A DNA stretch of 64,000 bases from Candidatus Aminicenantota bacterium (GTDB lineage Bacteria; Acidobacteriota; Aminicenantia; Aminicenantales; UBA4085): positions 65,195 through 129,194 of the forward strand of contig PLMN01000009.1 in the NCBI GenBank assembly GCA_003141555.1. Reading direction: 5' to 3'. Under the pieces are notes generated by a model. The model ran no database searches. It was not told the DNA's origin and saw only the letters and a list, made by a program, of their open reading frames with translations. Numbering within the stretch: the first letter of the stretch is position 1; each line of letters begins with the position of its first letter. Position numbers and translations under genes: made by a program. Of the stretch, positions 1,458-19,559 are shown piece after piece.

Positions 1458-3383
1458 TCAGGCGAGCGGCAGCTGGATCGTGAATTCCGTGCCCTCGCCG
1501 GGCTTGCTCCGGACGTCGATCGTCCCGTTGTGGCGCTTGATGATGCCGTACGAAACGGCCAGCCCCAGCCCCGTCCCCTTCCCCCGATCCTTGGTCGTGA
1601 AGAACGGCTCGAACAGCCGGGAGATATTTTCGGCGGGGATCCCGACCCCCGTATCCGCCACCTTCACCACCACCCGGCCGGCCGCCCGGTCGAGGGAAGT
1701 GGCCAAGGTCAGCCGGCCGCCCTTGGGCATGGCGTCGGCCGCGTTGACCGCCAGGTTGCTGATGACCTGCTTGAACTGGCTGATGTCGAGCCGGACGAGC
1801 GGCAGGCCCGGGGCGAAAGCCCGGATGATCGCCACGTTCTGGAAGGTGACATTCTTCTCGAAGATGGCCAGCGTTTCGTCGATGACCTCGTTTAGGTCGG
1901 CCGCCGTCTTCTCCGGCTCGTTCTCCCGGGCGAAGTCCAGGATGCCCCGGACGATCTTCCGGCAGCGGAGGGTCTCGTCGCGGATGACCTTGACGTCCTC
2001 CTCGTACTTCGTCCCGGCCAGATCGCCGAGGAGCAGGCTGCTGAAGGTCAGGACCCCGGTCAAGGGGTTGTTGATCTCGTGGGCGATCCCGGAGGCCAGG
2101 CGGCCGAGCGAGGCCAGCTTCTCGGACTTCAGGATCGTCCGCTCGGCTTGGTCCTGGAGCTTGCGGTCGCGCTCCTCGATGGCCGCGACCATGGCGTTGA
2201 ACCCCGAGGCGATCTTCCGCGCGTCGTCGTCGTCGCCCGGCAGGACCGCGATGGGCCGGTAGTTTCCGCGGGCGATGTCGGACGTGGCGGCGATGATCCG
2301 CTTGACCGGCTTGGTCGTGGCGTTGATCAGGTAGAGAGCCAGGACGAGGGCGACGAGGACGGTCACGACGATGATCAGCAGGAACAGGAGGGTCGTCGTC
2401 CGCAGAGCCGCGTCGAACTTCTCCTTGAGGACGCCCACGTAGAGCATGCCCAGGATGCGGCCGTCGATATCGCGCAGGGGGCTGTAGCCGGAGATGTACC
2501 AGGCGGCCACGACGAAGGCCTGGCCGACCCAGGTCTGGCCCTCCTCGTAAACCCGCTTGTAGACCTCCTCGGAAACCTGGGTCCCGATGGCCCGCTTGCC
2601 CAGGGTGTCCACGACGCTCGTCGTCACCCGGATGTCGCCCAGGAAGAGCGTCGAGGCCCCGACCTCGCGGCCGTCGATCCGCTCCTCCTTGAAGACGAGG
2701 CGCTTGAAGCGGTCGATGAACTGGTCGTTGTTGTTGAGGAGGACGGCGGCGTACAGGATCCCGATCATCGTCCCGTCGTCGAAGATGGGGGTCACCGCCT
2801 TCATGACCAGGGCGTCGTTCAGGGTCTGGGAGGCCAGGGGCCGGGCGAGGGGCGTGGGGACGACCTTGATGACCGTCCGCTCGGCCAGGTCCTTGCCTTC
2901 CTTGCGGATATTCTCCAGGCCGAGGATGCCCGTCCCCGCGGCCGGCTTCCGGTTCTTCATCACCCACTGGATATAGCGGTAGTTGGCCACGCTGTCGCCC
3001 CAGGCGTCGAAGTTGTTCGCCCGGACGAGGATCGAGCCGTCGGGATTGACCACGTTGACGATGTCGAAGCCGAATTCGGCCTTGATCTGGGCCAGCTTGG
3101 CGAAGAGGAAGGCCCGGTCGCGGGAGGCCGTGGCCTTGACGATCTCGGCCGTCTTGGCCAGGTACTCCACGATCCGTGACCGCTTCTGGACCTCCTCGTT
3201 GTAAAGCTCGGTCGTCGCCCCGAGGGAGTTGCGGACGGATTCCGTCGCCTCCCGGATGACGTTCTTGTTGATGATCGAGATGCCGACGATGAGGGACATC
3301 GTGCCCATGACGACGACGATGGCCAGCAGGCTGACCACCAGCTTGAGGCGGATGTTGGATCGGCGGAAGATGTCGGTGATCAT
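1458..3383 (-). CDS. Membrane sensor histidine kinase with dCache-like sensor and HAMP
   Basis: I start this 641-residue protein at the ATG at 3383 (MITDIFRR), which overlaps the stop of the upstream response regulator in an ATGA; the longer open frame upstream is antisense noise. It has an N-terminal membrane helix (about 14-38), an extracytoplasmic region of about 290 residues with the layout of a double-Cache sensor, a second helix (about 331-354), a HAMP linker, a HisKA domain (His435 in SGIAHEINNPLTG) and a HATPase domain (G boxes DTGVGIP and GTGLGLAVS). The HEINNPL form of the H box is typical of HK4-type kinases. It is probably paired with the adjacent CheY-like protein. The ligand is unknown; a small organic acid would fit the Cache fold. 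Confidence 0.9.
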   Translation of the reverse strand: MITDIFRRSNIRLKLVVSLLAIVVVMGTMSLIVGISIINKNVIREATESVRNSLGATTELYNEEVQKRSRIVEYLAKTAEIVKATASRDRAFLFAKLAQIKAEFGFDIVNVVNPDGSILVRANNFDAWGDSVANYRYIQWVMKNRKPAAGTGILGLENIRKEGKDLAERTVIKVVPTPLARPLASQTLNDALVMKAVTPIFDDGTMIGILYAAVLLNNNDQFIDRFKRLVFKEERIDGREVGASTLFLGDIRVTTSVVDTLGKRAIGTQVSEEVYKRVYEEGQTWVGQAFVVAAWYISGYSPLRDIDGRILGMLYVGVLKEKFDAALRTTTLLFLLIIVVTVLVALVLALYLINATTKPVKRIIAATSDIARGNYRPIAVLPGDDDDARKIASGFNAMVAAIEERDRKLQDQAERTILKSEKLASLGRLASGIAHEINNPLTGVLTFSSLLLGDLAGTKYEEDVKVIRDETLRCRKIVRGILDFARENEPEKTAADLNEVIDETLAIFEKNVTFQNVAIIRAFAPGLPLVRLDISQFKQVISNLAVNAADAMPKGGRLTLATSLDRAAGRVVVKVADTGVGIPAENISRLFEPFFTTKDRGKGTGLGLAVSYGIIKRHNGTIDVRSKPGEGTEFTIQLPLA

Positions 3384-3784
3384 CGAAGCAGGCCGGCGAT
3401 CCGGCCGAGCAGCCCGTCGAGATCCACCGGCTTGGTCAGGAACTCGTTGACGCCGGGGAGGAAGCTCTCGCCCTGGTCGAGCGAGAAGCGGGAGTTCGTG
3501 ACCTGGTCGATGGCCGTCAGCATGATGATCGGGACGGACCGGAACTCCCGGTAGCGGGACGTGGGCCGCGGGCTCCGGATCTGGTCGGCCGCCTCGAAGC
3601 CGGCCGTGTCCGTCTCCATCATCACGTCCAGGATGATGAGGTCGGGTCGCTCGGAGAGGAGGGCTCGGAGGCCCTCGGCCCCGCTGTACGCCGCGGCCAC
3701 GGCGTAGCCCCGGGTTTTCAGGACCTGGGACAGGCTTTCGACGAGGTCCCGGTCGTCGTCGACGATGAGGATCTTCTTGGCCAT
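3380..3784 (-). CDS. Single-domain response regulator (CheY-like)
   Basis: The protein is 134 residues and consists only of a receiver domain: acidic pair in ILIVDDDRD, phosphoacceptor Asp53 in LIILDVMM, and the conserved Lys in EFLTKPVD. The start is the ATG at 3784 (MAKKILIV); the frame runs on upstream only as noise inside the hydrogenase small-subunit gene. Its stop overlaps the start of the membrane kinase by 4 bp, so the two are translationally coupled. An insertion after the phosphorylation site (TSRYREFRSVP and the segment before FLPGVNEF) makes it a little longer than plain CheY. With no output domain, it probably acts by protein contact or as a relay to the downstream hybrid kinase. 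Confidence 0.88.
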   Translation of the reverse strand: MAKKILIVDDDRDLVESLSQVLKTRGYAVAAAYSGAEGLRALLSERPDLIILDVMMETDTAGFEAADQIRSPRPTSRYREFRSVPIIMLTAIDQVTNSRFSLDQGESFLPGVNEFLTKPVDLDGLLGRIAGLLR

Positions 3785-3801: not shown

Positions 3802-4332
3802 TCAATCCCGGAGCAGCTTGTAGATGACGTTCCGCTCCTCCCAAGCCCTGTTCCGGAGCTGGGCATCGATCGGGAACTCGACCTGCTTGAGCTCGACCGG
3901 CGCCGCCTTCTTGTCCACGAGCCCCAGGGCCAGGGCCACGCCGTAGACGATGGCCTCGGGCCGGGGCGGGCAGCCCGGGATGTAGTAGTCGACCGGGACG
4001 GCGGTCGCGCCTCCTCCGGAGACGTTGTACGTGTCGAACCAGCAGCCGCCGCCGAGGGCGCACGAGCCCACGCCGAAGACGAGCTTGGGCCCGGGCATCG
4101 CCTCGAAGGCCCGCTTGACCAGGGGGAACGTCGGCCGGGTCACCGCCCCGGAGAGGAGCATGACGTCCGCGTGGCGGGGCGAGCCGACGAGCTTGATCCC
4201 GAAGCGCTCGACGTCGTAGTAAGGCGTGAGGACATTCAGGATCTCGATATCGCAGCCGTTGCAGGCCCCGCTGTTGCAGTGATAGAGCCAGAGGGACTTG
4301 GGGAATGCCTTGCGGGCGAGCTTGGCCAGCAT
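3802..4332 (-). CDS. Group 4 [NiFe]-hydrogenase small subunit (NuoB/HycG-like)
   Basis: This 176-residue protein carries the proximal [4Fe-4S] cluster that passes electrons between the Ni-Fe site and the ferredoxin-like subunit. The four ligands are visible: Cys24 and Cys27 in CNSGACNGCDIE, the Cys of GVGSCALGGG and the Cys of IPGCPPRPEAI. The first motif has the spaced form of energy-converting hydrogenases rather than the adjacent Cys pair of complex I NuoB. Length matches the family. It follows the ferredoxin-like gene by 1 bp and belongs to the same operon. The complex should sit at the inner face of the cytoplasmic membrane. Confidence 0.92.
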   Translation of the reverse strand: MLAKLARKAFPKSLWLYHCNSGACNGCDIEILNVLTPYYDVERFGIKLVGSPRHADVMLLSGAVTRPTFPLVKRAFEAMPGPKLVFGVGSCALGGGCWFDTYNVSGGGATAVPVDYYIPGCPPRPEAIVYGVALALGLVDKKAAPVELKQVEFPIDAQLRNRAWEERNVIYKLLRD

Positions 4333-4333
4333 G

Positions 4334-4879
4334 TCAGCCTCCGATCCTTTCCGGACGCCGGTAGGCCTCGGTTTCGCCGAGGACGTCCGGCGCGAAGCGC
4401 TCCGTGGACCGGCGGATCACGGTCCGGGCCTCCAGGCTGTCGTAGCGATACCCCCGGAGGTCGAGCTTGTCGATCGCGTTCTTGATCTCGAGGTCGTAGC
4501 ACCGGCCGCAGCGCTGGCAGGTCAGCATGAAGAGCTCCAGGCTCTGGGTGATGTCGTCCCGGTCGCCGGTCGCGAGCTCGAACTCCGGGCTCATGACGAT
4601 GGCCTTCTCCGGGCAGACGTCGGCGCAGCGGCCGCAATACATGCAGCGCGCCCCGTCGTAGAACAGGATCCGGATCTCGGGGCAGAGATCCCGGGTCAGA
4701 ATCGTCCGGGCCGGACAATGGTTGGCGCAGCCGCCGCAGCCGATGCACTTCGTGTGGTCCCAGGCCGGCTGGCCGCGGAACCCTTCGGGTACGGGGCGGG
4801 ACTCCGCCGGATAGTTCAAGGTCACCTTCCCGGGCTTGAGCACCAGGAGGACCTGCTTGATCTTGCTCGTCAACCACAT
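4334..4879 (-). CDS. 4Fe-4S ferredoxin-like subunit of hydrogenase (NuoI/HycF-like)
   Basis: The 181-residue protein has two [4Fe-4S] motifs, CIGCGGCANHCPA and CMYCGRCADVCPEKAI, as expected for the polyferredoxin arm that links the hydrogenase small subunit to its electron donor. A further CQRCGRC segment downstream may bind an extra cluster or a metal; that is not usual in plain NuoI and deserves notice. The gene lies between the NuoH-like and NuoB-like genes with 13 bp and 1 bp gaps, the order seen in many group 4 hydrogenase operons. The start is an ATG at 4879. Confidence 0.9.
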   Translation of the reverse strand: MWLTSKIKQVLLVLKPGKVTLNYPAESRPVPEGFRGQPAWDHTKCIGCGGCANHCPARTILTRDLCPEIRILFYDGARCMYCGRCADVCPEKAIVMSPEFELATGDRDDITQSLELFMLTCQRCGRCYDLEIKNAIDKLDLRGYRYDSLEARTVIRRSTERFAPDVLGETEAYRRPERIGG

Positions 4880-4892
4880 GGCGTTTCTCCCC

Positions 4893-5804
4893 TCACCAGC
4901 CCTTGACCGCGAGGGCGACCGCGGCCAGGGACAGGACGATGAGGACGGCGTAATAGCGGACCGCCTGGTCGATCCGAAGGCGGGGGTTGGTCGACCCGAC
5001 CAGCCCGATCAGGAGGAAGACGACCAGCATGGCCGCGAGCTGGAGGACGATGTCCGCGGGATAGATCCCGGTCCGGATCCAGGGCAGGAAGACCGAGACG
5101 AAAAGCCAGGCGTAGAACATTTGCTTGAGCATCATCGCGTACTTGAACAGGGCGTAGTTCGGCCCGCTGTATTCGATGAACGGCCCTTCGAGGAGCTCGA
5201 CCTCGGCCTCGGCGATGTCGAACGGCTGCCGGGCGACGAACGCCTGCAGGGCGAGGAGATAGACGGCCAGCATGAGCCCGGTCGCGAGGGTGAACTTCGC
5301 CCCGGCCGCGCCGGGCATGGCCGCCGCGAGGCCGAGGCTTCTCAGCTTGACCGCGCCCAGGATGAGCGTCACGGCCAGGACGGGCTCGACCATGATCATG
5401 GTCACCATCTCCCGGCTGGCCCCGATCAGGGCGAAGGTATTGCGGCTGGCCAGGGCGCCCAGGAGCACGGCCACGCCGCCGAGGGTCAGGAGGTAGATGA
5501 CGACGATCACGTCCAGGCGGCCGGCGAAGACGCCGAGCCTGCCCCCGAACGGGATCAGGACGACGACGGCCAGGGCCGCCGCGAACGCGCCCAGGGGGGC
5601 CAGCTTGAAGGGCCAGCTCCCCGCCGAATTCAGGGTCTGCTTGCCGAGGAGCTTGAGCAGGTCGCGGTAGGGCTGGATGAGGGGCGGGCCCTGCCGGGAT
5701 TGGATCTTGGCCGCGAGCTTGCGGAGCACGCCCTCGTAGAGGGGCGCGGCCAGGAGGAAGACGAGGGCGTTGATCAGGGGGGCGGCGTAAGTCAGGGCGC
5801 GCAT
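4893..5804 (-). CDS. Membrane anchor subunit of group 4 hydrogenase (NuoH/HycD-like)
   Basis: The 303-residue protein is almost wholly hydrophobic, with about eight predicted membrane segments. It has the family marks RQGPPLIQPYRDLLKLLGK near the N-terminus and the loop QPFDIAEAEVELLEGPFIEYSG, rich in acidic residues, that couples the quinone-site or hydrogenase arm to ion movement. It anchors the small and large subunits to the cytoplasmic membrane. It starts 1 bp after the large-subunit stop, so the genes are tightly coupled. Confidence 0.92.
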   Translation of the reverse strand: MRALTYAAPLINALVFLLAAPLYEGVLRKLAAKIQSRQGPPLIQPYRDLLKLLGKQTLNSAGSWPFKLAPLGAFAAALAVVVLIPFGGRLGVFAGRLDVIVVIYLLTLGGVAVLLGALASRNTFALIGASREMVTMIMVEPVLAVTLILGAVKLRSLGLAAAMPGAAGAKFTLATGLMLAVYLLALQAFVARQPFDIAEAEVELLEGPFIEYSGPNYALFKYAMMLKQMFYAWLFVSVFLPWIRTGIYPADIVLQLAAMLVVFLLIGLVGSTNPRLRIDQAVRYYAVLIVLSLAAVALAVKGW

Positions 5805-5805
5805 G

Positions 5806-7482
5806 CTAGGGCTTCCTCCGGCCGCGGCCGAGGGCCTCGATCTCGCTCCGGGCGAAGACCCGGCGCGAACGGGCGCGGCCGTCGACGACGAGGACCCGGT
5901 CGGTGCAGGAGAAGCAGGGGTCGATGCTGCCGACGATTATCGGGAAATCGGCGAGCTGGTTGTCGAGTAGCATCCGCGGGACGCCCTGGAGGTTCGTGTA
6001 GGTCGGGGCGCGGACCCGCCACCGCTCGGGCCGATTTTCCGGGCCGGTGATCAGGTAGTGGACGGACTCGCCGCGCGGGGCTTCGACCATCGACAGGCCG
6101 TGCCGGTAAGCCGGGAGCACGTCCGCGACTTCGGTCAGGAGCGGTCCATCCGAGGGCATCTTGTCGAGGGCCTGGCGCACGATCTTGATCGACTCGAAGA
6201 TCTCGAGGAGCCGGACGACGAGCGTGCCCCAGACATCGCCCGAATCCATCACCGGGACGTCGAAGGAGAGCTCGTCATAGGCGGCGTAGGGATGGTCGCG
6301 GCGGACGTCGATGTCCACGCCCCGTCCCCGGGCCACGGGCCCGAGCAGGCTCCAGGCCTCGGCCTCTTCGCGGGGGATGAAGCCCACGCCCTTGGTCCGG
6401 CGGTGGATCGACGTATCCTTGAGGACGGCGTCCTTGAGTCCCCCGACCTCGGTCTCGACCTTCTTGAGCACGCCGAGGATATCCTCCCGAAGGGCGGGCG
6501 TGATGTCGCGCCGGACGCCGCCGATGACGATCATGCCGTAGGTCTTGCGGTTGCCGGTCAAGCGCTCCGAGAGCCACATGATCGGCTCGCGGACGCGCCA
6601 GCTCTGCATGAAGATCGTGTCGTAGCCGATGAGGTGGCCGGCGACCCCCAGCCAGAGGAGGTGGGAGTGGAGGCGCTCGATCTCGAGCATGATCGTCCGG
6701 ATGAACTCGGCCCGCCGGGCGATCTTGATTCCCGCCGCTTCCTCGACGGACTGGGAGTAGGCCGCGGCATGGACCGAGCCGCAGATCCCGCAGATCCGCT
6801 CGGCCACGAAGGGCACCTCGTTGTAGCTGACCTGGGTCTGGCAAAGTTTTTCGATCCCCCGGTGGGTCATGAACCCCCGGTAATCGCAGCCCTTGATCGT
6901 CTCCCCGTCGACGTAGACGGCGAAATGGGCGGGCTCGTGCAGGCTCGGATGGAAGGGCCCGATGGGGACGGTCGTCGTGCCCTCGGGCGCCTCGTCGAGC
7001 TCGTAGGCCACGTCCTCGGCCGAGGGCGGCACGAGGTTGTAGGGGACTTCCTTGCGGAGGGGATGAATCCCCGCCGGCCAGTCGTCGGCCAGAATGAGCT
7101 TCTTGGGCTTCGGATTGCCCTTGAACGTGAATCCCAGCAGATCCATGTATTCGCGCTCGGTCCAGCCCGCGGCCGGGATCTCGGGCGCGATCGAGTCGAA
7201 CTCGGGCGTCTCGGCCGGGGCCGACGTCCGGAGCGCGACGGTGAAGCCGTCCTTGTCGAAGGCGAACAGGTGGATCATGCCGAAGGCGCCGCGGCGGTCG
7301 CGCTCGTCGCTGCCCACACCGACCATGTAGCGGCCGCCCGCGGCCCTCAGCTTCAAGGCCGCCGCCCGGAAAGCCGTCCTGTCGATGTCGAGGACAAGCC
7401 GCTTCGGCGTCGCCCCCTCGGACACGGTGAGCGCCGGCCCGAACCCGTCCCGGAGCGTCCGGATCAGGCTGTCTTTGGTCAT
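5806..7482 (-). CDS. Group 4 [NiFe]-hydrogenase large subunit with NuoC domain (HycE-like)
   Basis: The 558-residue protein fuses an N-terminal NuoC-like domain (about 1-160) to a NuoD/hydrogenase large-subunit domain, as in HycE of formate hydrogenlyase. All four Ni-Fe ligands are present: Cys231 and Cys234 in RICGICGSVHA, and Cys523 and Cys526 in DPCFSCTDR. This separates it from complex I NuoCD, which has lost them, and supports real proton reduction or H2 oxidation. The chain continues for 32 residues after the last Cys, so a short C-terminal peptide may be removed on maturation. No hyp maturation genes lie in this window. Its start overlaps the stop of the antiporter-like gene. Confidence 0.94.
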   Translation of the reverse strand: MTKDSLIRTLRDGFGPALTVSEGATPKRLVLDIDRTAFRAAALKLRAAGGRYMVGVGSDERDRRGAFGMIHLFAFDKDGFTVALRTSAPAETPEFDSIAPEIPAAGWTEREYMDLLGFTFKGNPKPKKLILADDWPAGIHPLRKEVPYNLVPPSAEDVAYELDEAPEGTTTVPIGPFHPSLHEPAHFAVYVDGETIKGCDYRGFMTHRGIEKLCQTQVSYNEVPFVAERICGICGSVHAAAYSQSVEEAAGIKIARRAEFIRTIMLEIERLHSHLLWLGVAGHLIGYDTIFMQSWRVREPIMWLSERLTGNRKTYGMIVIGGVRRDITPALREDILGVLKKVETEVGGLKDAVLKDTSIHRRTKGVGFIPREEAEAWSLLGPVARGRGVDIDVRRDHPYAAYDELSFDVPVMDSGDVWGTLVVRLLEIFESIKIVRQALDKMPSDGPLLTEVADVLPAYRHGLSMVEAPRGESVHYLITGPENRPERWRVRAPTYTNLQGVPRMLLDNQLADFPIIVGSIDPCFSCTDRVLVVDGRARSRRVFARSEIEALGRGRRKP

Positions 7483-9377
7483 GGGCGGCCTCCTTGCCTT
7501 CGGCCGGCCTTCGGCGAGGTCCGCCCTCCCGTCCAGCGGAAGAAATTCTTGAACGCGGCGAACATGCCGTGGTCCCGGTACCGGTTTTTATCGCTGAGCT
7601 CCTGGTAGCCGCAGAGCCAGGTCGGAACCGCGACCTCCCGGGACCCGGCCGACCGGCGGAGGAGGACGGCCGCGGCGAGCGCGGCCGCGAGGAGTCCGAG
7701 CACGACGAGCGGCGCGACCGCGGCGTTGAGCCCGGGCCCGAAGAGATCGTGGACCCGGATCCCGAGGAGCGAGACCGAGAGCATGCCGTCGAGCCCGCCG
7801 GGCGTGAACGCCTCGCCGAGGAGGAACCCCCGGGAATTCGCGAGAGCTGAGGAGATCAGGCCGAAGAACAGGAACGGAAAGAGGCCTTGGACTATGCAAA
7901 CCGCGGCCAGGGCAAGCTTGGGAAGAAGCATCAGGACCGGCACCTCGCGGATCTCCTTCTTGACCGTCCACTCCGAGCCCGAGGCCGTGAAGGCCATCCC
8001 GAAGAACTTGACGTAGCAGGCCAGGGTCACGACGCTCGTGAAAAGGGCCGCGATCCCGAACAGGACGAGGAGGACGGACGCGTCGCCGGCAAGGAGCGAG
8101 CTGGTGATGATCGTCCACTTGCTGGCGAAGCCGCTCGACGGCGGCATGCCGGCGATCGAGAGCGAGGCCACGCCGGCCACGGCGGCGCTCACCGGCATGA
8201 GCTTGATCAGCCCCCCGAGGCGGTTAAGGTCCTTGGTGCCGGTGGCATAGAGCAGGCTTCCGCCGGTGAGGAATAGGAGCCCCTTGAAAGCGGCATGGTT
8301 GAGCACGTGGAACAGGGCGCCGAGGATGGCCACGGCGGCCAGGCTCCGGACCGCCGGGACGCCGGAGCCCGAGAGGAGCAGGGCCGCGCCCATCCCTAGG
8401 ACGATGTAGCCGATCTGGCCGATCGAGCTGAAGGCCAGGAGGCGCTTGGCGTCGCTCTGCTTCACGGACTGGATCGTGCCGATGAAAAGCGTCGCCGCGC
8501 CGACGGCGGCCAGGACGAGGCCCCAGAGGGCGGCGTCGAAGCCGTTCCCGCCCGGCGGGAGCATGAAGAAGAACACCCGGAGGAGGCCGAAGATCCCGGT
8601 CTTGAGCATGACGCCCGAGAGCAAGGCGCTAACGGGCGAAGGCGCCACGGAATGGGCATCCGGCAACCAGAGCTGGCCGAGGGGAAAGACGCCCGCCTTC
8701 AAGCCGAAACCGACGAGGAGCAGACCATAGACGGCAAACAGCGGGCCGGCGCCCGCCCCGGCCAGCTTGCCGCCCAAGGTGTGGAGCGAGTCGCCGATCG
8801 ATCCGCCCGCGACGAGGCCTCCGCCGACGACGAGGAGCCAGGCCAGCTCCATGAGGGCGAGGTACTTGGCCGCGGCGCGGACGTTCTCCGGCTTCCGCCG
8901 CTCGAAGCGGATGAGGACGAACGAGGAGAGGGTCATCAGCTGCCAGGCGAGGGTGAAGCCGAGCGAGAGGTCGTCGACAGTGACAAGGGCCGCCATCCCC
9001 AGGATGAAGACGGGGAAGGCGGCCGTGAACCGGCCCAGGCCGTAGTCCGGATAGTGGTCCATGTAGCGGATGGCGTAGAGGGCGCTCAGCGCCGAAAGCA
9101 CGGCGATGACCGCCAGGAACAGGCCGCTCAGGCCGTCGATCAGGATCGGGACGGCGATCGGCCCGAGGCGGAGGAATTCCGCTTCGTCCATGCCCCCGCC
9201 GAGGGCGGCCTTGAGCCCGGCCCAGGCGAGCAGAACGCAGGCCGCGGCGACGAAAGCGAAGTGGACAATGCCGGCCGCCCGCCGGCGGGCGGCGAAGAGC
9301 GGGGTCACGACCGCCGCGGCGGCCAGGGCCGCCAGGGCCGCGAAAACGGGAATGACCAGGTCGGGACGGGTGAACAT
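7479..9377 (-). CDS. Proton-translocating antiporter-like subunit (HyfB/NuoL/MrpD family)
   Basis: I start this 632-residue protein at the ATG at 9377 (MFTRPDLV); the open frame further upstream is noise inside the HydG-like gene. It has about 14-16 hydrophobic segments. The core motifs of Mrp/NuoL/M/N antiporter subunits are visible: the Lys-bearing segment LKAGVFPLGQLWLPDAHS, the LLAFSSIGQIGYI segment and the HVLNHAAFKGLLFL segment. It should couple hydrogenase electron flow to H+ or Na+ movement. Only one such subunit is encoded, a simpler layout than Hyf. Its start shares one base with the stop of the upstream HydG-like gene (TGATG). Confidence 0.9.
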   Translation of the reverse strand: MFTRPDLVIPVFAALAALAAAAVVTPLFAARRRAAGIVHFAFVAAACVLLAWAGLKAALGGGMDEAEFLRLGPIAVPILIDGLSGLFLAVIAVLSALSALYAIRYMDHYPDYGLGRFTAAFPVFILGMAALVTVDDLSLGFTLAWQLMTLSSFVLIRFERRKPENVRAAAKYLALMELAWLLVVGGGLVAGGSIGDSLHTLGGKLAGAGAGPLFAVYGLLLVGFGLKAGVFPLGQLWLPDAHSVAPSPVSALLSGVMLKTGIFGLLRVFFFMLPPGGNGFDAALWGLVLAAVGAATLFIGTIQSVKQSDAKRLLAFSSIGQIGYIVLGMGAALLLSGSGVPAVRSLAAVAILGALFHVLNHAAFKGLLFLTGGSLLYATGTKDLNRLGGLIKLMPVSAAVAGVASLSIAGMPPSSGFASKWTIITSSLLAGDASVLLVLFGIAALFTSVVTLACYVKFFGMAFTASGSEWTVKKEIREVPVLMLLPKLALAAVCIVQGLFPFLFFGLISSALANSRGFLLGEAFTPGGLDGMLSVSLLGIRVHDLFGPGLNAAVAPLVVLGLLAAALAAAVLLRRSAGSREVAVPTWLCGYQELSDKNRYRDHGMFAAFKNFFRWTGGRTSPKAGRRQGGRP

Positions 9378-10222: not shown

Positions 10223-11281
10223 TTACCTGCCTGTCGTCTCCCTCCGGATGTACTGGACCACGTTGGGCAGGCCGATGTCGCCCGGGCAGACCCGGGCGCA
10301 ACGGCCGCAGCCTACGCATCCCGGCCGGAGGTATTTTTTCGATTGGGAATAGGAGAGCTTGCAGAAGAAGCGTTTGTTGCGCCGGTCCTCGATGGGCCGG
10401 CGCGGGTTGTGCTCGCCCGCCATCCGGGAATAGCCTTCGAACGAGCAGGAGTCCCAGGTCCTGATGCGCCCGGTCGGGCCTTCGGCGGGGGTGACGTCCT
10501 CGATATTGAAGCAGGAGCACGTCGGGCAGACGTAGGAGCAGGCGCCGCACTCGAAGCACTGGTGGCCGATGTATTCCCAGGTTTCGTTCTTGACGAAGCC
10601 CGTGGTCAGACGGTTGACGGCCCGGGAGATCCAGGCCTTGTTTTCCCGGGCGGCAGGGTCGAAGCTCGCGATCGAGGCGTTCACGGCCGCGTCCCGCCTC
10701 CCGGCGGCGTCGGCCCCGGCAGGCGCCAGGCCGAGCCGAGCGGCGAGGGCGGCGCCCTTCTCGCTCCCGGATTCGACGAGGTAGTGGTCCCCGAGGTCGG
10801 TAAGGTTGAGGTCATAGCCTTCGACGGCGTAGGGACCGCTGTCCGTGCAGACGCAGAAGCACTGGGGGAACGGGCCGAGGCAGGTATTGGCCACGATGAA
10901 TGTCCGGCGCCGGTGATCGCGGTAGACCTCGTCCACGAACTCCTGCCCGAGGTAGAACCGGTCGAGGCAGGCGAGGCCGGTGAGGTCGCAGGAGCGGACG
11001 CCGATCAGGGCCTTGGGCCGGACGAGGTCGGTCCGGGCGATGTCGACCTTCTTGGAGTCCCGGTCGTAGGCATAGTGAAGGATCTCCTCGAAATGGGGAA
11101 AGACCGCGGCTTTGGGCGGGATGTACGGGATGGGCGCGTCGAGGCGCAGGGCGGCCGGATCGGCGAGCTTCTCGAACAGGGCGTCTCCCGAAACCTCGTG
11201 GAGGATCGGGCCGTAAAGCTCGTGCTGCTCGCCGAGGGCTTCGACGAGCCGGGGAAGTCCGGACTTGGGAAGGATATGCAT
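10223..11281 (-). CDS. 4Fe-4S electron-transfer subunit (sulfhydrogenase beta / HydB-like)
   Basis: The 352-residue protein has the N-terminal domain of the HydB/AsrA family (segments IGVRSCDLTGLACLDRFYLG and CVCTDSGPYA) and two C-terminal cluster motifs, CFECGACSYVCPTCSCF and CVGCGRCARVCPGDIG. In archaeal sulfhydrogenase this subunit links the flavoprotein gamma subunit to the hydrogenase dimer. It lies 3 bp before the HydG-like gene and 2 bp after the molybdopterin gene, so the three proteins are probably made in equal amounts and form an input module on the hydrogenase. Confidence 0.88.
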   Translation of the reverse strand: MHILPKSGLPRLVEALGEQHELYGPILHEVSGDALFEKLADPAALRLDAPIPYIPPKAAVFPHFEEILHYAYDRDSKKVDIARTDLVRPKALIGVRSCDLTGLACLDRFYLGQEFVDEVYRDHRRRTFIVANTCLGPFPQCFCVCTDSGPYAVEGYDLNLTDLGDHYLVESGSEKGAALAARLGLAPAGADAAGRRDAAVNASIASFDPAARENKAWISRAVNRLTTGFVKNETWEYIGHQCFECGACSYVCPTCSCFNIEDVTPAEGPTGRIRTWDSCSFEGYSRMAGEHNPRRPIEDRRNKRFFCKLSYSQSKKYLRPGCVGCGRCARVCPGDIGLPNVVQYIRRETTGR

Positions 11282-11283
11282 GG

Positions 11284-13290
11284 CTAGACCTTCTCGATCC
11301 TGACGGGGATGGCCGCGTCCTCGCCGCGCTCGATATCGACGGCGTGCGGCTTGAGGAACCCGGGGATCATGGCCCCGATGAAATAGGGCGCGTAGGCCAT
11401 GCCGGGGCGGACGTCGTCGGTCACGCGGGCCGCCACGGTCATGGAACCTTTCGCCGAGACGATCCGCGCCGGCCGCTTGTCGCGCAGGCCGAGGCGGGCG
11501 GCATCATCGGGATGGATTTCAACGAGACCCTGGGGATAGAGCAGCAATAAAGCGTTATACTCCCGGCGGGGGATGAACGTCTTCCTCATGATATTGTTCT
11601 GGTGCCAGTAATACGTCGAGGTACCCGCGACGAGGGCCATCGGGAAATCGTCGGAGAGGCCGGGCCGTCCGGATTCCGCGGCGAAGGGAACAAAGGTCAT
11701 CCGGCCGGCGTCCTCGGCCAGGAGGCGGGGCGTCCCCTGGGGGCGGGCGGCGTCGCAGGGCCATTGCAGCCCCCCGAAATTCCGGTCGAGCTTGTCGTAG
11801 GTGACGGCGCTATAAGACGGAACGGTCCGGGCGATGTCGGCGAAGACTTCGGAGGCCGCCCGGTAGCCCCAGTCCTGGCCGCGCTTCGCGGCGAGGTCGG
11901 CGAAGACGCGCCAGGCCGGGCGGGCTTCGGCCAGCGGCTCGGTCTTGCGCCGGTTGAGCTGGATGCGGCGCTCGGCGCTGGTGTACGTGCCGTCGCCCTC
12001 CCCGTATGACGTCGTGGGCAGGACGGCGTGGGCCAGTCCGGCGAACGGGTTGGCGTAGGCCCCAAGATACACGACGTAGTCCAGGTTCCGGACGGCGTCC
12101 GCCTCGAGATTGATCTCGTCGTCGTGGTCGACGACGACGAGCGCCTTCAAGCCCGAGCCCTCGTCGCGGAGGAGGTCGTCGATCCGGCGGCCGGGCCGGG
12201 CGTCGAGACCCGACTTCCATGCGGCCCCGAGCTCGGCCGCCGCCCCCTCGTCGGGGAGGCGCCGGGCGCCGGGAAGCATGTCGGGCACCGCGCCCATGTC
12301 GCTCGCCCCGAGCATATTGCTGATCCCGGTCACGGGATTGACGCCGCATCCCTCGCGGCCGATCTTGCCCGCGGCCAGGAAGAGGTCAAAGAGCAATGCC
12401 GCGGTGTCGCGGTCGGGACCGGCCACGCCCGCGGCGGTGAAGGCCAAGGCCCGCCGCGCGGCGGCCAGGCGCCGGGTGGCATCCCGGAGGCTTTCGAGAG
12501 AGAGGCCGGTTTGGGCTTCGACGGCCGCGAGGTCGAAGCCGGCGAGCGACATCCGAAAAGCGTCGAAGCCCCGCCCGTAGCGGGCGATGAAATCCGCGTC
12601 CTGGCGGTTCTCGTCGATCAGGATCCTGGCCATGGCCTTGAGGACCGTCGCCAGAGAGCCCGGCTTGGGCCGGAGATGGGTTGTCGCGAGCCGGGCCATC
12701 TGGGTCGTCCGGCTGCTCAGGACGAGGACGTGCGTTCCGCCTCTCGCCGCGAAATGGATCTCGCTGGCGATGATGGGATTCTGTTTGGAGAGATCGGTCC
12801 CGACCACCAGGATGAAGTCGGCCGGACGGATGTCGGCCAGGGCGCCCGTCATGGCCGGCCAACCTGCCCCGTCGAGGAGGACGCGGGCGGAGGCTTGATG
12901 GCCGGCGTCGGATAGGAGGCCGATGTTGGGACAGCGGAAGACGGCGCGGGCCAGACGGACGAGGGCGTATGTGTCTTCGTTCGAAGCGCGCGGCGAAGCC
13001 CAGAACCCGATCTGATCCCCGATATAGTCCGCCAGCCGGCCGGCGACCGAAGCCAGGGCTTCGTCCCAGCCGACCTCGCGAGTCCGTCCGGCCTCCCGGA
13101 GGAGGGGCCGGGCGATCCGGTCCCCGTTCGTCAGCAGCTCATGGATGTGCCAGCCGCGGACGCAGAGGCGCCCCTTGCCGACGGGATGCTCGGGGGAGGG
13201 AAAGACGCCGCGGACGGCCCCTCCCTCGACCTTCAGGAGATGGCCGCAGCCCGTTCCGCAATAATTGCACACGCCCGGATGATTACTCAT
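11284..13290 (-). CDS. Formate dehydrogenase alpha-like molybdopterin protein lacking the Cys/Sec ligand
   Basis: I choose the ATG at 13290 (MSNHPG), with GAGGAG about 7 bp upstream, over the TTG two codons earlier; this gives 668 residues. An N-terminal [4Fe-4S] motif (Cys8, 11, 15, 43) precedes a molybdopterin oxidoreductase core and a dinucleotide-binding C-terminal domain. The segments SPRASNED and SNMLGASDMGAVPDMLPG place it in the FdhA family. Where active formate dehydrogenases have Cys or Sec followed by His, this protein has Gly130-His131 (codon GGC at 12901-12903). The usual Arg of the NP(L/V)RGQNN motif is Thr321. The shortened FdhA lacks the extra N-terminal ferredoxin domains. 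It heads the hydrogenase operon. It probably does not oxidise formate; another substrate or a pure electron-transfer role is possible. Confidence 0.85.
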   Translation of the reverse strand: MSNHPGVCNYCGTGCGHLLKVEGGAVRGVFPSPEHPVGKGRLCVRGWHIHELLTNGDRIARPLLREAGRTREVGWDEALASVAGRLADYIGDQIGFWASPRASNEDTYALVRLARAVFRCPNIGLLSDAGHQASARVLLDGAGWPAMTGALADIRPADFILVVGTDLSKQNPIIASEIHFAARGGTHVLVLSSRTTQMARLATTHLRPKPGSLATVLKAMARILIDENRQDADFIARYGRGFDAFRMSLAGFDLAAVEAQTGLSLESLRDATRRLAAARRALAFTAAGVAGPDRDTAALLFDLFLAAGKIGREGCGVNPVTGISNMLGASDMGAVPDMLPGARRLPDEGAAAELGAAWKSGLDARPGRRIDDLLRDEGSGLKALVVVDHDDEINLEADAVRNLDYVVYLGAYANPFAGLAHAVLPTTSYGEGDGTYTSAERRIQLNRRKTEPLAEARPAWRVFADLAAKRGQDWGYRAASEVFADIARTVPSYSAVTYDKLDRNFGGLQWPCDAARPQGTPRLLAEDAGRMTFVPFAAESGRPGLSDDFPMALVAGTSTYYWHQNNIMRKTFIPRREYNALLLLYPQGLVEIHPDDAARLGLRDKRPARIVSAKGSMTVAARVTDDVRPGMAYAPYFIGAMIPGFLKPHAVDIERGEDAAIPVRIEKV

Positions 13291-13545: not shown

Positions 13546-13572
13546 AAAAAAGCCGGATCCCGGCTCCGGCTT
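13546..13572 (-). terminator. Intrinsic terminator after the 13572-14060 gene
   Basis: On the minus strand the stem AAGCCGG/CCGGCTT (13550-13556 with 13566-13572), with a 9-nt loop, runs into six T residues. The first stem base overlaps the stop codon of the upstream gene. It separates the response-regulator pair from the hydrogenase operon promoter. Confidence 0.75.
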
Positions 13573-14060
13573 CAAGGCGCGCCGATCTTCAGGGTGACGA
13601 CGTAGAGGATGTTGTAGAGGTTGCTGATGCCGCCGATGAAGCGCTCCCGGATCATGCCCTTGGGAATTTCCTCGATCGTCCTCTTCATGGCGTCCAGCGC
13701 GGCCCGGACCCCCTCCGCCTCGCGCCGCAGGCCGGCGGCGTCCTCTCCGGCGCGGCGGCCTTCGATCCGCGATCCGACCTGGGAGACGTCCTGGAAGACG
13801 GCCCGGTAAAAGAGGCGGGACGCGGGGGACAGGTCCTTGACGACTTTTTCGATGATGCAGATCCGGACCAGGGCATAGCCGACGAGGACGCCGGCCGTGT
13901 CGCGGCCGACGCTCCGCTCGGGATGGCGCTCGAAGTAGGCCTCGCCCAAGGCGATCATGTCGGGCGCGGCGAAATCGAATTCGCCCGCGAGGGCGGTCAC
14001 GGCCGCCCGGAAGGACGCCAGGTCCTTTTCCCGGCGGAAGATCTCGGCGGGGCTGGCCAT
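13572..14060 (-). CDS. Hypothetical soluble protein, 162 residues
   Basis: I do not recognise this family. The protein is soluble, mostly helical by composition, and has a charged stretch about 95-135 (GRRAGEDAAGLRREAEGVR) that may form a coiled coil. It has no signal peptide, no Cys motif and no membrane segment apart from a mildly hydrophobic C-terminal end. It lies 19 bp after a single-domain response regulator, ends in an intrinsic terminator and so forms a two-gene unit. A role as target or partner of that regulator is inferred from position only. Confidence 0.7.
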   Translation of the reverse strand: MASPAEIFRREKDLASFRAAVTALAGEFDFAAPDMIALGEAYFERHPERSVGRDTAGVLVGYALVRICIIEKVVKDLSPASRLFYRAVFQDVSQVGSRIEGRRAGEDAAGLRREAEGVRAALDAMKRTIEEIPKGMIRERFIGGISNLYNILYVVTLKIGAP

Positions 14061-14079: not shown

Positions 14080-14451
14080 CTAGGCTTTCAGGCGGCGGAG
14101 CGAGGACAGGAGCATGTCGAAATCGACCGGCTTCTGAAACACGCCGTTGAAGCCCAGGCCGCTCAGGTCGAGAGCCCCGGCCGTGGCGTCACCGATCGTG
14201 CTCAAGAGGAAAATGGGGACGTCGGCCCGTTTGCCTCTCATGACCTTCGCCACCCGGATCCCGGAATCGACGTCCTCCATCATCATGTCGCACAGGACGG
14301 CGTCGGGCTTGACCCGGCCGAAGGCCTCGAGGCCCTCCATACCGCTCAACGCGGTCTCGGCCGCGAAGCCATTCGCTTCGAGGACGGCCTTCACGGATTC
14401 GCAGATGGCCGGATCATCGTCGATGACCAGGATCTTCTTCTTGTCGGACAT
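14080..14451 (-). CDS. Single-domain response regulator (CheY-like)
   Basis: The 123-residue protein is a lone receiver domain with the acidic cluster VIDDDPA, phosphoacceptor Asp55 in AVLCDMMMED and the conserved Lys in GVFQKPVDF. It resembles the receiver at 3380-3784 in having MM after the phosphorylation site, so the two may be paralogues. No kinase lies beside it; the nearest are the three signalling genes at the far end of the hydrogenase operon. A well-placed GGAGGG precedes the ATG by about 4 bp. Confidence 0.88.
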   Translation of the reverse strand: MSDKKKILVIDDDPAICESVKAVLEANGFAAETALSGMEGLEAFGRVKPDAVLCDMMMEDVDSGIRVAKVMRGKRADVPIFLLSTIGDATAGALDLSGLGFNGVFQKPVDFDMLLSSLRRLKA

Positions 14452-14546: not shown

Positions 14547-15146
14547 ATGCGGGAACGAAAGCCGGGAATGCGGCCGGCGGCGAGCGCCATCGTCCTGGCC
14601 GGCGGCGACAGCCGGCGGATGGGACGGGACAAGGCGCTGCTCCCGGTCCGGGGCAGGCCCCTGATCGCCCTGATCATGGACCGCCTGGCCGGACGCTTCG
14701 ACGACATCCTGATCAGCGCCGGGCCAGGCGACGATCGCCGTTTCCCCGGCCGGACCGTCGTCGTTGACGCCGCGCCGGGCCAGGGACCGCTGATGGGGAT
14801 CGCCACGGCCCTGCCCCGGATCCGGCACGACCTGGCCTTCATCATCGCCTGCGACATCCCCCACATCGACCTGGACTTTGTCGAGCGCCTGATCGAGCGG
14901 GCCGGAGGATGCGATCTCGCCCTCCCCGACCGCGGCGGCGGGCGATACGAGCCCCTGTTCGCCGTCTACCGCAAGGCCGTCGCCGGGCCCGCGCGCGACA
15001 TTCTGGCGGCCGGCGGACGGAGCATCCTGGAGCTCCTCGACCGGGTGCGGCTGGGGCTCGTGGCCGTCCCGCAGAATGTGCGGATCGGAAACATCAACAC
15101 GGAGTCGGATTACCGGAGATTCCTGGGTGACCCTTCTTCCCTTTGA
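14547..15146 (+). CDS. mobA: Molybdenum cofactor guanylyltransferase MobA
   Basis: The 199-residue protein should transfer GMP from GTP to molybdopterin cofactor to make the guanine dinucleotide form used by DMSO-reductase-family enzymes. The nucleotide-binding signature LAGGDSRRMGRDKALLPV (about 18-35), the GQGPLMGIATAL segment, the metal-binding Asp in IIACDIPHID and the RYEPLFAVY segment are all present. It is divergent from the response-regulator pair and lies about 1.3 kb from the FdhA-like gene. The Mo hydroxylase at 16859-19559 is also nearby, but such enzymes usually take the cytosine form of the cofactor. GGGAGG lies about 10 bp before the ATG. Confidence 0.92.
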   Translation: MRERKPGMRPAASAIVLAGGDSRRMGRDKALLPVRGRPLIALIMDRLAGRFDDILISAGPGDDRRFPGRTVVVDAAPGQGPLMGIATALPRIRHDLAFIIACDIPHIDLDFVERLIERAGGCDLALPDRGGGRYEPLFAVYRKAVAGPARDILAAGGRSILELLDRVRLGLVAVPQNVRIGNINTESDYRRFLGDPSSL

Positions 15147-15195: not shown

Positions 15196-16908
15196 ATGAT
15201 GAACGAAAATACGATTCCCGCAGTCCTGGCCCGAACCGCCGAGAGCCATGCCGACCGGCCGTCTTTATCGTTCTACGACGAAGAGCCGATGTCCTACCGG
15301 ACTTTCAAGGAACGGGTCGATCAAATCTCGGAATTTCTCGCCGCCCGCGGCGTCGCACCCGGCGACCGGGTGGCCATCCTCAGTGAGAACGGCCCGCACT
15401 GGGGAATCGCCTTTTTCGCCGTCACCTCGCTGGGCGCCGTGGCCGTGCCCATCCTGGCGGACTTCCCCCCCGCCGACGTGCACCACATCCTCCGCCATTC
15501 CGAAGCCCAGGCCGTCTTTGTCTCGGAGAAGCAGTACGCCAAACTCGAGGACGCGTCCTTCGAGCACCTGAAGGTCAGGATCCTGATCGACGATTTCTCG
15601 GTCATCGACCCGGGCACGAACAAGGACCGGCTGCGGAAGCTGATCGCCGAAGGGGGAACGGAGCTGCGCAAGATCAAAATGCGGGCCCTCCAGCTGGTGG
15701 GCCTCCGCCCCTCCAAGGTCCGGGACGACGACCCTGCCTCGATCATCTATACGTCGGGGACGACCGGCCACACCAAGGGCGTGATTCTCTCCCACCGCAA
15801 CATCGTGGGCAACGCCGAAGCCACCCTCAAGTTCATCGAGTTGAGCACTTCGGACCGCATGCTGTCGCTGCTGCCGCTCGGCCATGTCTACGAGTGCACC
15901 CTGGGCCTGGTCGTGCCCGTAATCCGGGGCACGTCGGTGGCGTATCTCCGCAAGCCGCCCACGGCGGCCGTCCTCCTGCCGGCTCTCAAGGCGGTCCAGC
16001 CGACCATCGTCCTGTCCGTCCCGCTGATCATCGAGAAGATGGTCCGGGGGCGGGTGTGGCCGGAGATGCGTCGTTCGGCCCCGCTCCGCTGGGCAGCCAA
16101 GGTCCCCTCGCTCCGCAGAACGATCAGCCGCAAGGCCGGAAAGAAGATGATCGCCGCCTTCGGCGGGCACCTGAGACTGCTGTGCATCGGCGGCTCGGGG
16201 CTGGCGCCCGACGTCGAGGCATTTCTCCGGGAAGCGGGCTTCCCCTACGCCATCGGCTACGGGCTCACGGAGACATCGCCGCTCGTGACGGGGACGGACG
16301 CCTTCCGGACGAAGCTGCGCTCCGCGGGCCCGGCGCTCGCCGGCGTCGAGATCAGGATCGACGCGCCGGACGCGGCCTCGGGCGAAGGGGAGATCGAGGT
16401 CCGGAGCGAATTCGTGATGACGGGATATTACAAGGACCCCGAGAAGACGGCGGACGTCCTCACCCCCGACGGCTGGCTGAAGACCGGCGACCTGGGCCGC
16501 CTGGACGGCGACGGATATCTCTTCATCAAGGGCCGGCTGAAAAATGTCATCATCGGCCCGAGCGGAGAAAACATCTATCCCGAGATCATCGAATCGGTCA
16601 TCAACCGGCTCCCCGAGGTCCAGGAATCCCTGGTCTACGAACGCCAAGGCCAGCTGACGGCCCGCGTCTGCCTGGACGCCGAAAAGCTGGACGCCGTGAT
16701 CGCGGAACGGAAATATACCGAGGCCCAGATCCGGGACTACATCCGCGGCAAGCTGGACGACATCAAGCGGCACGTCAACGAGAATGTGGCCGCGTTCTCG
16801 CGCCTCAGCAAGGTCATCGAACAGACCGAGGACTTCGAGAAAACTCCCACTCAGAAGATCAAGCGATTCCTGTACGTGGACGAAGGGCCGATTTCGTCCG
16901 ACCGGTAG
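15196..16908 (+). CDS. AMP-forming long-chain acyl-CoA synthetase (FadD-like)
   Basis: The 570-residue protein belongs to the ANL adenylation superfamily and should activate a fatty or related acid to its acyl-CoA through an acyl-AMP. The P-loop IIYTSGTTGHTKGV (about 182-195), the IGYGLTETSPLV motif (A5), the DGWLKTGDLGRLDGDGY motif (A7) and the KNVIIGPSGENIYPE motif (A8) are intact, and a C-terminal Lys lies in TPTQKIKRFL. Two ATGs lie in tandem at 15196 and 15199; the second has better spacing from the GGGGA upstream. The last 50 bp overlap the end of the convergent molybdenum hydroxylase gene. Confidence 0.92.
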   Translation: MMNENTIPAVLARTAESHADRPSLSFYDEEPMSYRTFKERVDQISEFLAARGVAPGDRVAILSENGPHWGIAFFAVTSLGAVAVPILADFPPADVHHILRHSEAQAVFVSEKQYAKLEDASFEHLKVRILIDDFSVIDPGTNKDRLRKLIAEGGTELRKIKMRALQLVGLRPSKVRDDDPASIIYTSGTTGHTKGVILSHRNIVGNAEATLKFIELSTSDRMLSLLPLGHVYECTLGLVVPVIRGTSVAYLRKPPTAAVLLPALKAVQPTIVLSVPLIIEKMVRGRVWPEMRRSAPLRWAAKVPSLRRTISRKAGKKMIAAFGGHLRLLCIGGSGLAPDVEAFLREAGFPYAIGYGLTETSPLVTGTDAFRTKLRSAGPALAGVEIRIDAPDAASGEGEIEVRSEFVMTGYYKDPEKTADVLTPDGWLKTGDLGRLDGDGYLFIKGRLKNVIIGPSGENIYPEIIESVINRLPEVQESLVYERQGQLTARVCLDAEKLDAVIAERKYTEAQIRDYIRGKLDDIKRHVNENVAAFSRLSKVIEQTEDFEKTPTQKIKRFLYVDEGPISSDR

Positions 16909-19081: not shown

Positions 19082-19082
19082 C

Positions 19083-19559
19083 TCACTTCTCCGCTCTCAT
19101 CTCCCGGGCCGCGTCCTGGATGGCGGCCACGATCCGGGCGTATGTGCCGCAACGGCAAAGGTTGCCCGACATCTCGTCGATGATCTTCGCCCGGCTCGGG
19201 TTCGGGTCCCGGCGCAACAGACCGTAAGCGTTGAGGATCATCCCGGGGGTGCAATATCCGCACTGGAGGGCGTCGTTCCGCATAAACGCCTTCTGCAAGG
19301 GGTGGAGCGCCTCGCCCGCGGCGAGGGCTTCGATCGTCACGACGCTCCGGCCTTTGACGTCCTTGAGGAGGGTCTGGCAGGACCGGACGGGCGCGTCGTC
19401 CACGAGGACCGTGCAGGCCCCGCAGAAGCCCTCCCCGCATCCATACTTGACGCCGAGGAGCCCGAAGTCGTACCGGAGGACACCGAGCAGCATCCGGCCG
19501 CCGCCGGCCCCGATACTCACCGGCTTTCCATTGAGCGTGAAGCCGATCTTCTCATCCAT
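19083..19559 (-). CDS. [2Fe-2S] subunit of molybdenum hydroxylase (IorA/CoxS-like)
   Basis: The 158-residue protein has the plant-type [2Fe-2S] motif (CGEGFCGACTVLVDD with a later Cys in VRSCQTL) and the second, C-terminal cluster motif (CGYCTPG and GNLCRCGTYARI) of the small subunit of xanthine-oxidase-family enzymes. It passes electrons from the Mo site to an outside acceptor. No FAD subunit is encoded next to it, which agrees with the two-subunit isoquinoline-oxidoreductase type that uses a cytochrome or other acceptor. Its start overlaps the end of the ribokinase gene by 8 bp. Confidence 0.92.
   Translation of the reverse strand: MDEKIGFTLNGKPVSIGAGGGRMLLGVLRYDFGLLGVKYGCGEGFCGACTVLVDDAPVRSCQTLLKDVKGRSVVTIEALAAGEALHPLQKAFMRNDALQCGYCTPGMILNAYGLLRRDPNPSRAKIIDEMSGNLCRCGTYARIVAAIQDAAREMRAEK

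Follow-up and report, generated by a model that had tools for sequence, protein, structure and literature searches.

Two described systems, the formate hydrogenlyase (FHL) of Escherichia coli (PMC9474812) and the Fdh2-hydrogenase-antiporter cluster of Thermococcus, combine an FdhA-family subunit with a [NiFe] hydrogenase of group 4 and an antiporter-like arm. FdhF of FHL is seated on HycB, with its cluster A1 superposing on the off-pathway cluster N7 of complex I (PMC9474812). The formate dehydrogenase (FDH) of both systems is active and fed with formate. The same combination of subunits was found in a Candidatus Aminicenantota bacterium, within a stretch of 64,000 nucleotides (contig PLMN01000009.1, positions 65,195 to 129,194), here called the window. 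In contrast to the described systems, the FdhA-like subunit of the window (P0001) has lost its catalytic site, and a FAD/NAD(P)-binding gamma subunit is present. Sequence comparisons suggest that this subunit is probably a descendant of FDH alpha that is catalytically dead and, most likely, free of molybdopterin. It would serve an ion-coupled group 4 [NiFe] hydrogenase as a structural part that carries one [4Fe-4S] cluster.

Judging by its description, a locus in Saganbacteria RX5A is probably of the same kind. Its group 4 [NiFe] hydrogenase was called "enigmatic" in 2019, the nearest hydrogenases being in Zixibacteria and Omnitrophica, and the passages of that account dealing with the locus contain no residue analysis, statement of catalytic loss or cofactor test (PMC6349859). 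A molybdopterin-oxidoreductase fold without Mo catalysis is likewise found in NuoG/Nqo3 of complex I. However, the window protein lacks the 2Fe-2S/HoxU-like domain found at the N terminus of NuoG; it starts at the Fe4S4 domain and scored 115 bits with the NuoG profile TIGR01973 (cut-off, 470). FdhF-related domains also occur in other redox complexes: that of StnC was stated to be inactive (PMC10482914), HydA of HydABCSL, a homologue of FdsA and Nqo3, has an A4/A5 branch judged most likely nonfunctional (PMC8880783), and QrcB has a profile named molybdopterin-binding-like (NF041783), with which the window protein scored 66 bits against a cut-off of 440. These three proteins belong to other complexes and carry other attached domains than the window protein. 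A model for a live counterpart of the FdhA-like/gamma pairing is the NADP-dependent Fdh3 of Thermococcus onnurineus, in which an active FdhA is accompanied by FeS subunits and a protein that binds NAD(P); the triad of Fdh3A is Cys133-His134-Arg325, in contrast to Gly-His-Thr in the window (PMC8965080).

The beta and gamma subunits encoded next to the FdhA-like gene are homologous to an NAD(P)H-FAD-FeS electron-input module found as beta/gamma in the group 3b sulfhydrogenase and as AsrA/AsrB in anaerobic sulfite reductase. The relationship is one of homology only, as every equivalog score was below its cut-off (HydB, 146 bits against 750; HydG, 197 against 650; AsrA, 126 against 323; AsrB, 185 against 289). 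Unlike in the sulfhydrogenase, their partner in the window is a membrane group 4 hydrogenase. NuoB-, NuoC/D-, NuoH-, NuoI- and antiporter-like subunits were all present, as expected of group 4, and the large subunit retained all four Ni-Fe cysteines in the motifs RICGIC and DPCFSC, in agreement with the initial annotation of this DNA. By contrast, Ehr complexes are defined by the absence of these ligands.

Active-site residues and conservation of the FdhA-like protein

The extent and strand first assigned to the FdhA-like open reading frame (ORF) were correct. Translation likely starts at the ATG at 13290, because GGAG lies just 5' of it and the aligned orthologues open with MSY/MSN..GVC. A profile search found the Molybdop_Fe4S4, Molybdopterin and dinucleotide-binding domains in an intact architecture, and the closest solved structures were F420-, NAD- and FHL-type FDHs. 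The protein is FdhA-like, although its score with TIGR01591 (FDH alpha) was 415 bits against a curated cut-off of 666. An AlphaFold model built from 7 sequences was poor (mean predicted local distance difference test [pLDDT] score, 61). When it was searched with Foldseek, E. coli FdhF came out on top with a template modeling (TM) score of about 0.4 and a root mean square deviation of about 20 Å; therefore, this result confirms the family only.

Residues were numbered by alignment to Citrobacter FdhF, which retains the E. coli numbering. In this alignment, U140, H141 and R333 of FdhF correspond to Gly130, His131 and Thr321, respectively, and codon 130 (GGC) is followed by CAT. The proposed replacements of Cys or selenocysteine (Sec) by Gly and of the essential Arg by Thr were thus borne out. 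The N-terminal iron-sulfur cysteines, which form the Cys4 motif of FDH alpha, were all present, as had also been noted. A missed Sec codon was ruled out, in line with the initial annotation, since the codon is GGC and neither Cys nor TGA occurs at this position in any relative of the clade described below.

When one genome per species was scanned, five close relatives (43 to 61% identity) and one distant FdhF were found. In a whole-genome search of the class to which the window belongs, 28 of 142 genomes had matches at an E value of ≤1e-100; 27 of these, the window genome counted, fell into one clade, and the 28th was a relative in G477 with 34% identity, outside the clade. Members were also found in about 30 of the 296 sampled Spirochaetota genomes and in one acidobacterium outside Aminicenantia (G054). 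The clade was delimited by more than 40% identity to P0001, not by residues, and comprises 57 members, the window counted, from Aminicenantia (Acidobacteriota), the other acidobacterium and Spirochaetota. The column of the Mo ligand held G in 52 members, W in 4 and T in 1, with Cys or Sec in none; the Arg column held T in 35, A in 16, V in 3, P in 2 and S in 1, with Arg in none. Judging from this alignment, both losses in the window protein go beyond chance, because they are shared by all 57 members. The comparison set consisted of 24 canonical FDHs picked for C/U and R, with two YjgC-type Cys-Gln relatives excluded; therefore, the contrast describes the state of the clade and is not an independent statistic. 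The idea that the two changes remove formate oxidation stands as far as the residues are concerned, and the loss of activity is judged from them. An active FDH subunit, as in FHL, was not found: the active-site residues are lost, and the sole clear molybdopterin guanine dinucleotide (MGD) enzyme among the PF00384 matches of the window genome was DmsA-like.

The residue after the ligand position also varied (H in 35 members, Q in 11, L in 7 and Y in 4), so Gly-His is not a conserved pair. Within the window's own family, G-H in the window is replaced by W-Y in L007, L008, L014 and L097.

The erosion extends beyond the two catalytic positions. Among 120 columns that are at least 90% conserved in canonical FDHs, 50 were kept in the clade, 36 were mixed and 34 were lost, the last including K44, C136, N159, N176, H181, R333, Q335, D478 and K679 (FdhF numbering). 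The column of K44, a residue between the cluster and the pterin in FdhF, held Arg in all members. What was measured here is the loss of FDH-conserved columns only. At the same time, the clade has a conservation of its own, with 104 columns at ≥95%, of which 38 are rare or absent in canonical FDHs; the latter include a new segment at residues 561 to 588. We looked in the clade alignment for another Cys that could hold Mo, and only the four cluster cysteines, retained in every member, were invariant. C315, close to the former Arg loop, was present in 66% of the clade. Another Cys as the Mo ligand was therefore ruled out, and the initial annotation is not contradicted by a Cys or Sec elsewhere.

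The ratio of nonsynonymous to synonymous substitution rates (dN/dS) of the subunit was 0.07 to 0.18 in five pairs, indicating purifying selection. A sequencing error or pseudogene was ruled out by this ratio and the 57 members. By these comparisons, the protein is remodelled and conserved, not randomly decaying.

The operon was compared in 22 neighbourhoods, namely 21 loci with a clade member plus the window, all picked by the presence of the FdhA-like subunit. The gene order was the same in 22 of 22: FdhA-like, beta, gamma, usually a hydrogenase maturation protease, HyfB-like, NuoC/D-like [NiFe] large subunit, NuoH, NuoI, NuoB and a response regulator. The protease gene was absent from its usual place in the window, L007, L008, L104 and L118. 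No adjoining operon of this kind was found at four loci with canonical-type FDHs (L101, L102, L117 and L011). We favor a dead scaffold because Cys/Sec, Arg and other FDH-invariant residues are lost while the cluster cysteines are kept, the operon is invariant and the subunit is under purifying selection.

In a tree rooted at the midpoint, the clade formed one side of a branch with a Shimodaira-Hasegawa-like approximate likelihood ratio test (SH-aLRT) support of 100 and a length of 0.96. The relative in G477, a genome of the same bacterial order (L100, 8681 to 10720, minus strand), was at the base of the FDH side. It retains Cys-His and has Ile for the substrate Arg (NPLIGQSN), and its operon is rearranged to gamma, FdhA-like, beta, two HyfB-like, large subunit, NuoH and NuoI. 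This relative may represent a halfway stage toward losing FDH activity or a case of separate erosion.

Gly at the Cys/Sec position was also seen in an otherwise canonical FDH of G098 (L026/L117, 2141 to 4147; CVRVGHAPSE, with RGQNN kept), where the hydrogenase operon was not found in the surrounding 9 kb. A sequencing error or an independent loss could each account for this Gly.

Cofactor supply and competing readings

The genes for cofactor supply were surveyed in 48 to 51 genomes carrying the operon or its L100 sister. MoaA (PF06463) was found in 42 of 51 genomes, aldehyde ferredoxin oxidoreductase (AOR) in 44 of 48 and MobA, at an E value below 1e-17, in 35 of 48. In nine genomes of genus g126 (90 to 94% complete), the FdhA-like subunit, MoaA, MoeA and AORs were all present, and the MobA profile gave only weak matches (E values, 1e-6 to 9e-4). 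Three of these matches were classified, all as IspD, and the remaining ones open with the same kind of sequence. Eight of the nine genomes had one other PF00384 protein each and the ninth had none; the eight proteins are NuoG-like, three by classification and the rest by their N termini read by eye. No MGD enzyme was thus seen in the nine genomes beside the FdhA-like subunit. The tenth g126 genome, G503, had MobA and an 820-amino-acid molybdopterin protein on one contig, and in G499, G502, G490, G495, G503 and G497 no more than about 9 kb separated MobA from an MGD protein of DmsA size. The protein of this size class in the window genome belongs to the DmsA family. MobA appears to track the DmsA-like enzyme, given this proximity in six genomes and the joint absence in g126, and the FdhA-like subunit appears to stay when both are gone. 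In three spirochaetes, G298, G314 and G153, the subunit was kept with no match to MoaA, MoeA, AOR or MoCoBD_1 and no strong match to MobA; other PF00384 matches were none in G298, NuoG in G314 and QrcB-like in G153. That the subunit persists where neither MobA nor another MGD enzyme was seen is the decisive reason for the cofactor-free reading. The inactive molybdopterin scaffold first proposed, by analogy with NuoG, is therefore favored as a scaffold, probably one without molybdopterin.

Several points weigh against this reading. G298, G314 and G153 come without a completeness estimate. MoaA and MoeA (PF03453) were unmatched also in G146, G531, G525, G490 and G477, which carry AOR genes, and several of them also MGD enzymes, that should need MoaA and MoeA; a single absent profile is therefore weak evidence, and a missing piece of assembly or a divergent pathway may explain these misses. 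For this reason, the cofactor argument was based on MobA in g126, whose genomes did yield the remainder of the pathway. MobA, MoeA and a weak MoaA match are present in the window genome itself, so that, with MoaA in most of the surveyed genomes, many members could hold a pterin. Finally, homology is the only basis for the position of the cluster, the path of the electrons and the coupling to ions.

The best of the alternatives, which we consider unlikely, is that the subunit binds (bis-)MGD, or a pterin devoid of metal, with no ligand from the protein, and that this cofactor carries electrons or fills space in the structure but takes no part in formate chemistry. It would fit the intact domain architecture, the frequency of MoaA and strong MobA, the MobA gene adjoining the operon, and the large conserved C-terminal domain, which would otherwise surround an empty cavity. 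However, the subunit is kept in the nine near-complete genomes and in the three with none of the pathway genes tested, MobA in the six genomes cited is close to a DmsA-sized protein, and K44, N176, Q335 and K679 are lost throughout the clade. A mixed situation, in which MGD-making members hold Mo or W by the pterin without a protein ligand, for new redox chemistry or an inorganic relay, and MGD-less members use the protein empty, seems very unlikely.

The initial annotation also offered a Mo/W enzyme with new chemistry, in which Gly replaces Cys, bis-MGD alone holds the metal and another substrate feeds the hydrogenase. In arsenite oxidase, the metal is held by bis-MGD only. Gly is indeed the most frequent residue at the site, AOR genes are common in these genomes, which may thus handle tungsten, and the remodelled loops are conserved in the 38 clade-specific invariant columns, as expected of a new active site. 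Yet four close relatives have W-Y, and G-Q, G-L and T-H occur elsewhere, with the same operon where examined; H181 is lost clade-wide together with the four residues just named, and MGD supply was not seen in g126, G298, G314 or G153. We therefore regard this option as highly improbable. That the subunit is degenerating toward loss, the operon working without it, is hardly credible: in each of the five pairs, no other subunit of the complex had as high a dN, and this one is among the least conserved, but the low dN/dS, full-length frames, invariant cluster cysteines and 104 clade-invariant columns argue against it; the neighbourhoods compared had been chosen by the presence of the subunit.

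Proposed role in the hydrogenase complex

As a cofactor-free structural subunit, the FdhA-like protein would not oxidize formate. NAD(P)H would be oxidized at the FAD of gamma, and from the [2Fe-2S] cluster of this subunit electrons would reach the Ni-Fe site by way of the [4Fe-4S] clusters in beta, NuoI and NuoB; there, protons would be converted to H2, or the reverse. The NuoH/HyfB arm would couple this flow to the translocation of H+ or Na+. The FdhA-like subunit may dock beta/gamma onto the hydrogenase arm, in the seat that FdhF has in FHL. Like N7 of complex I, its [4Fe-4S] cluster could have a structural role or lie on a side branch, and it is less likely to be an in-line relay. The role of electron hub first suggested was thus not supported, as the single cluster, by analogy with A1 of FdhF and N7, may be a side branch. 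We infer this reversible electron flow and its coupling to ions from the families concerned, in which NuoB and the large subunit make up the hydrogenase itself.

Complex I is thought to have descended from membrane hydrogenases, and its NuoG is a dead FDH-like protein. The clade looks like another, separately wired case, in which a hydrogenase kept its FDH subunit as a part after catalysis and cofactor had been lost, with the Ni-Fe site and the NAD(P)H input looking intact beside it. It may offer a living, testable analogue of the change from enzyme to scaffold in the complex I superfamily. Profile searches would label the clade as FDH or FHL, and many Aminicenantia and Spirochaetota would thereby be mistakenly credited with formate metabolism. 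We regard the clade as a conserved pseudo-formate dehydrogenase, probably cofactor-free, in a hydrogenase complex of uncultured anaerobes. A literature search, which covered few subscription journals, found no account of its residue losses or cofactor independence, and both appear to be new. The text on FDH-like sequences from Lost City (PMC9469722) has no operon or residue data linking them to the clade.

Features of the operon and its surroundings

The features of the window are listed in the table below. The beta subunit has further cysteines beyond its two clear [4Fe-4S] motifs, and the antiporter-like ORF as listed starts too far upstream. The gene for the 162-amino-acid protein lies next to regulators; its place upstream of the operon is conserved in Aminicenantia and at several loci of Spirochaetota, and the protein may contribute to operon control.

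Table. Coordinates of the FdhA-like gene, its key sites and the neighbouring genes in the window
Feature	Position	Strand	Basis
FdhA-like subunit without Mo ligand (P0001), 668 aa	11284..13290	-	PF04879, PF00384, PF01568; TIGR01591, 415 bits
Gly130 codon GGC, Cys/Sec (FdhF U140) position	12901..12903	-	Alignment
Thr321 codon, Arg (FdhF R333) position	12328..12330	-	Alignment
N-terminal [4Fe-4S] ligands C8, C11, C15, C43, invariant across the clade	13162..13269	-	Alignment
Clade-specific segment YWHQNNIM..FIP.REYNALLLLYPQG, residues 561-588, in part an insertion without canonical FDH counterpart	11527..11610	-	Alignment
Beta subunit, AsrA/sulfhydrogenase HydB-like, two C-terminal [4Fe-4S] motifs	10223..11281	-	PF17179; under HydB, ShyB and AsrA equivalog cut-offs
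Gamma subunit, FAD/NAD(P)-binding, C-terminal [2Fe-2S] motif C246, C251, C254, C262	9377..10219	-	PF00970, PF00175, PF10418
Antiporter-like membrane subunit (HyfB/NuoL-like)	7479..9377	-	Profiles; likely ATG 9377 by comparison with L008
Group 4 [NiFe] large subunit fused to NuoC-like domain; C231, C234, C523, C526	5806..7482	-	Profiles, motifs
NuoH/HycD-like membrane anchor	4893..5804	-	Profiles
NuoI/HycF-like subunit, two [4Fe-4S] motifs	4334..4879	-	Profiles, motifs
NuoB/HycG-like small subunit	3802..4332	-	Profiles
Response-regulator receiver protein, conserved final gene of the operon	3380..3784	-	Profile, locus comparison
162-aa protein of unknown family, without Pfam match, upstream of the operon	13572..14060	-	Locus comparison
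Second response regulator upstream of the operon, conserved in Aminicenantia	14080..14451	-	Profile, locus comparison
MobA-like gene adjoining the operon	14547..15146	+	Profile classification

Two further observations concern molybdopterin proteins of the window genome. A molybdenum hydroxylase pair is encoded at 16859 to 19559 of the window (minus strand), with an aldehyde/xanthine-dehydrogenase-type large subunit (PF02738) and a 2Fe-2S subunit. On contig C12 of the same genome (G000), L003 (88 to 2964, plus strand) encodes a long protein with a molybdopterin domain and an apparent GltD-type start, which is possibly StnC-like.
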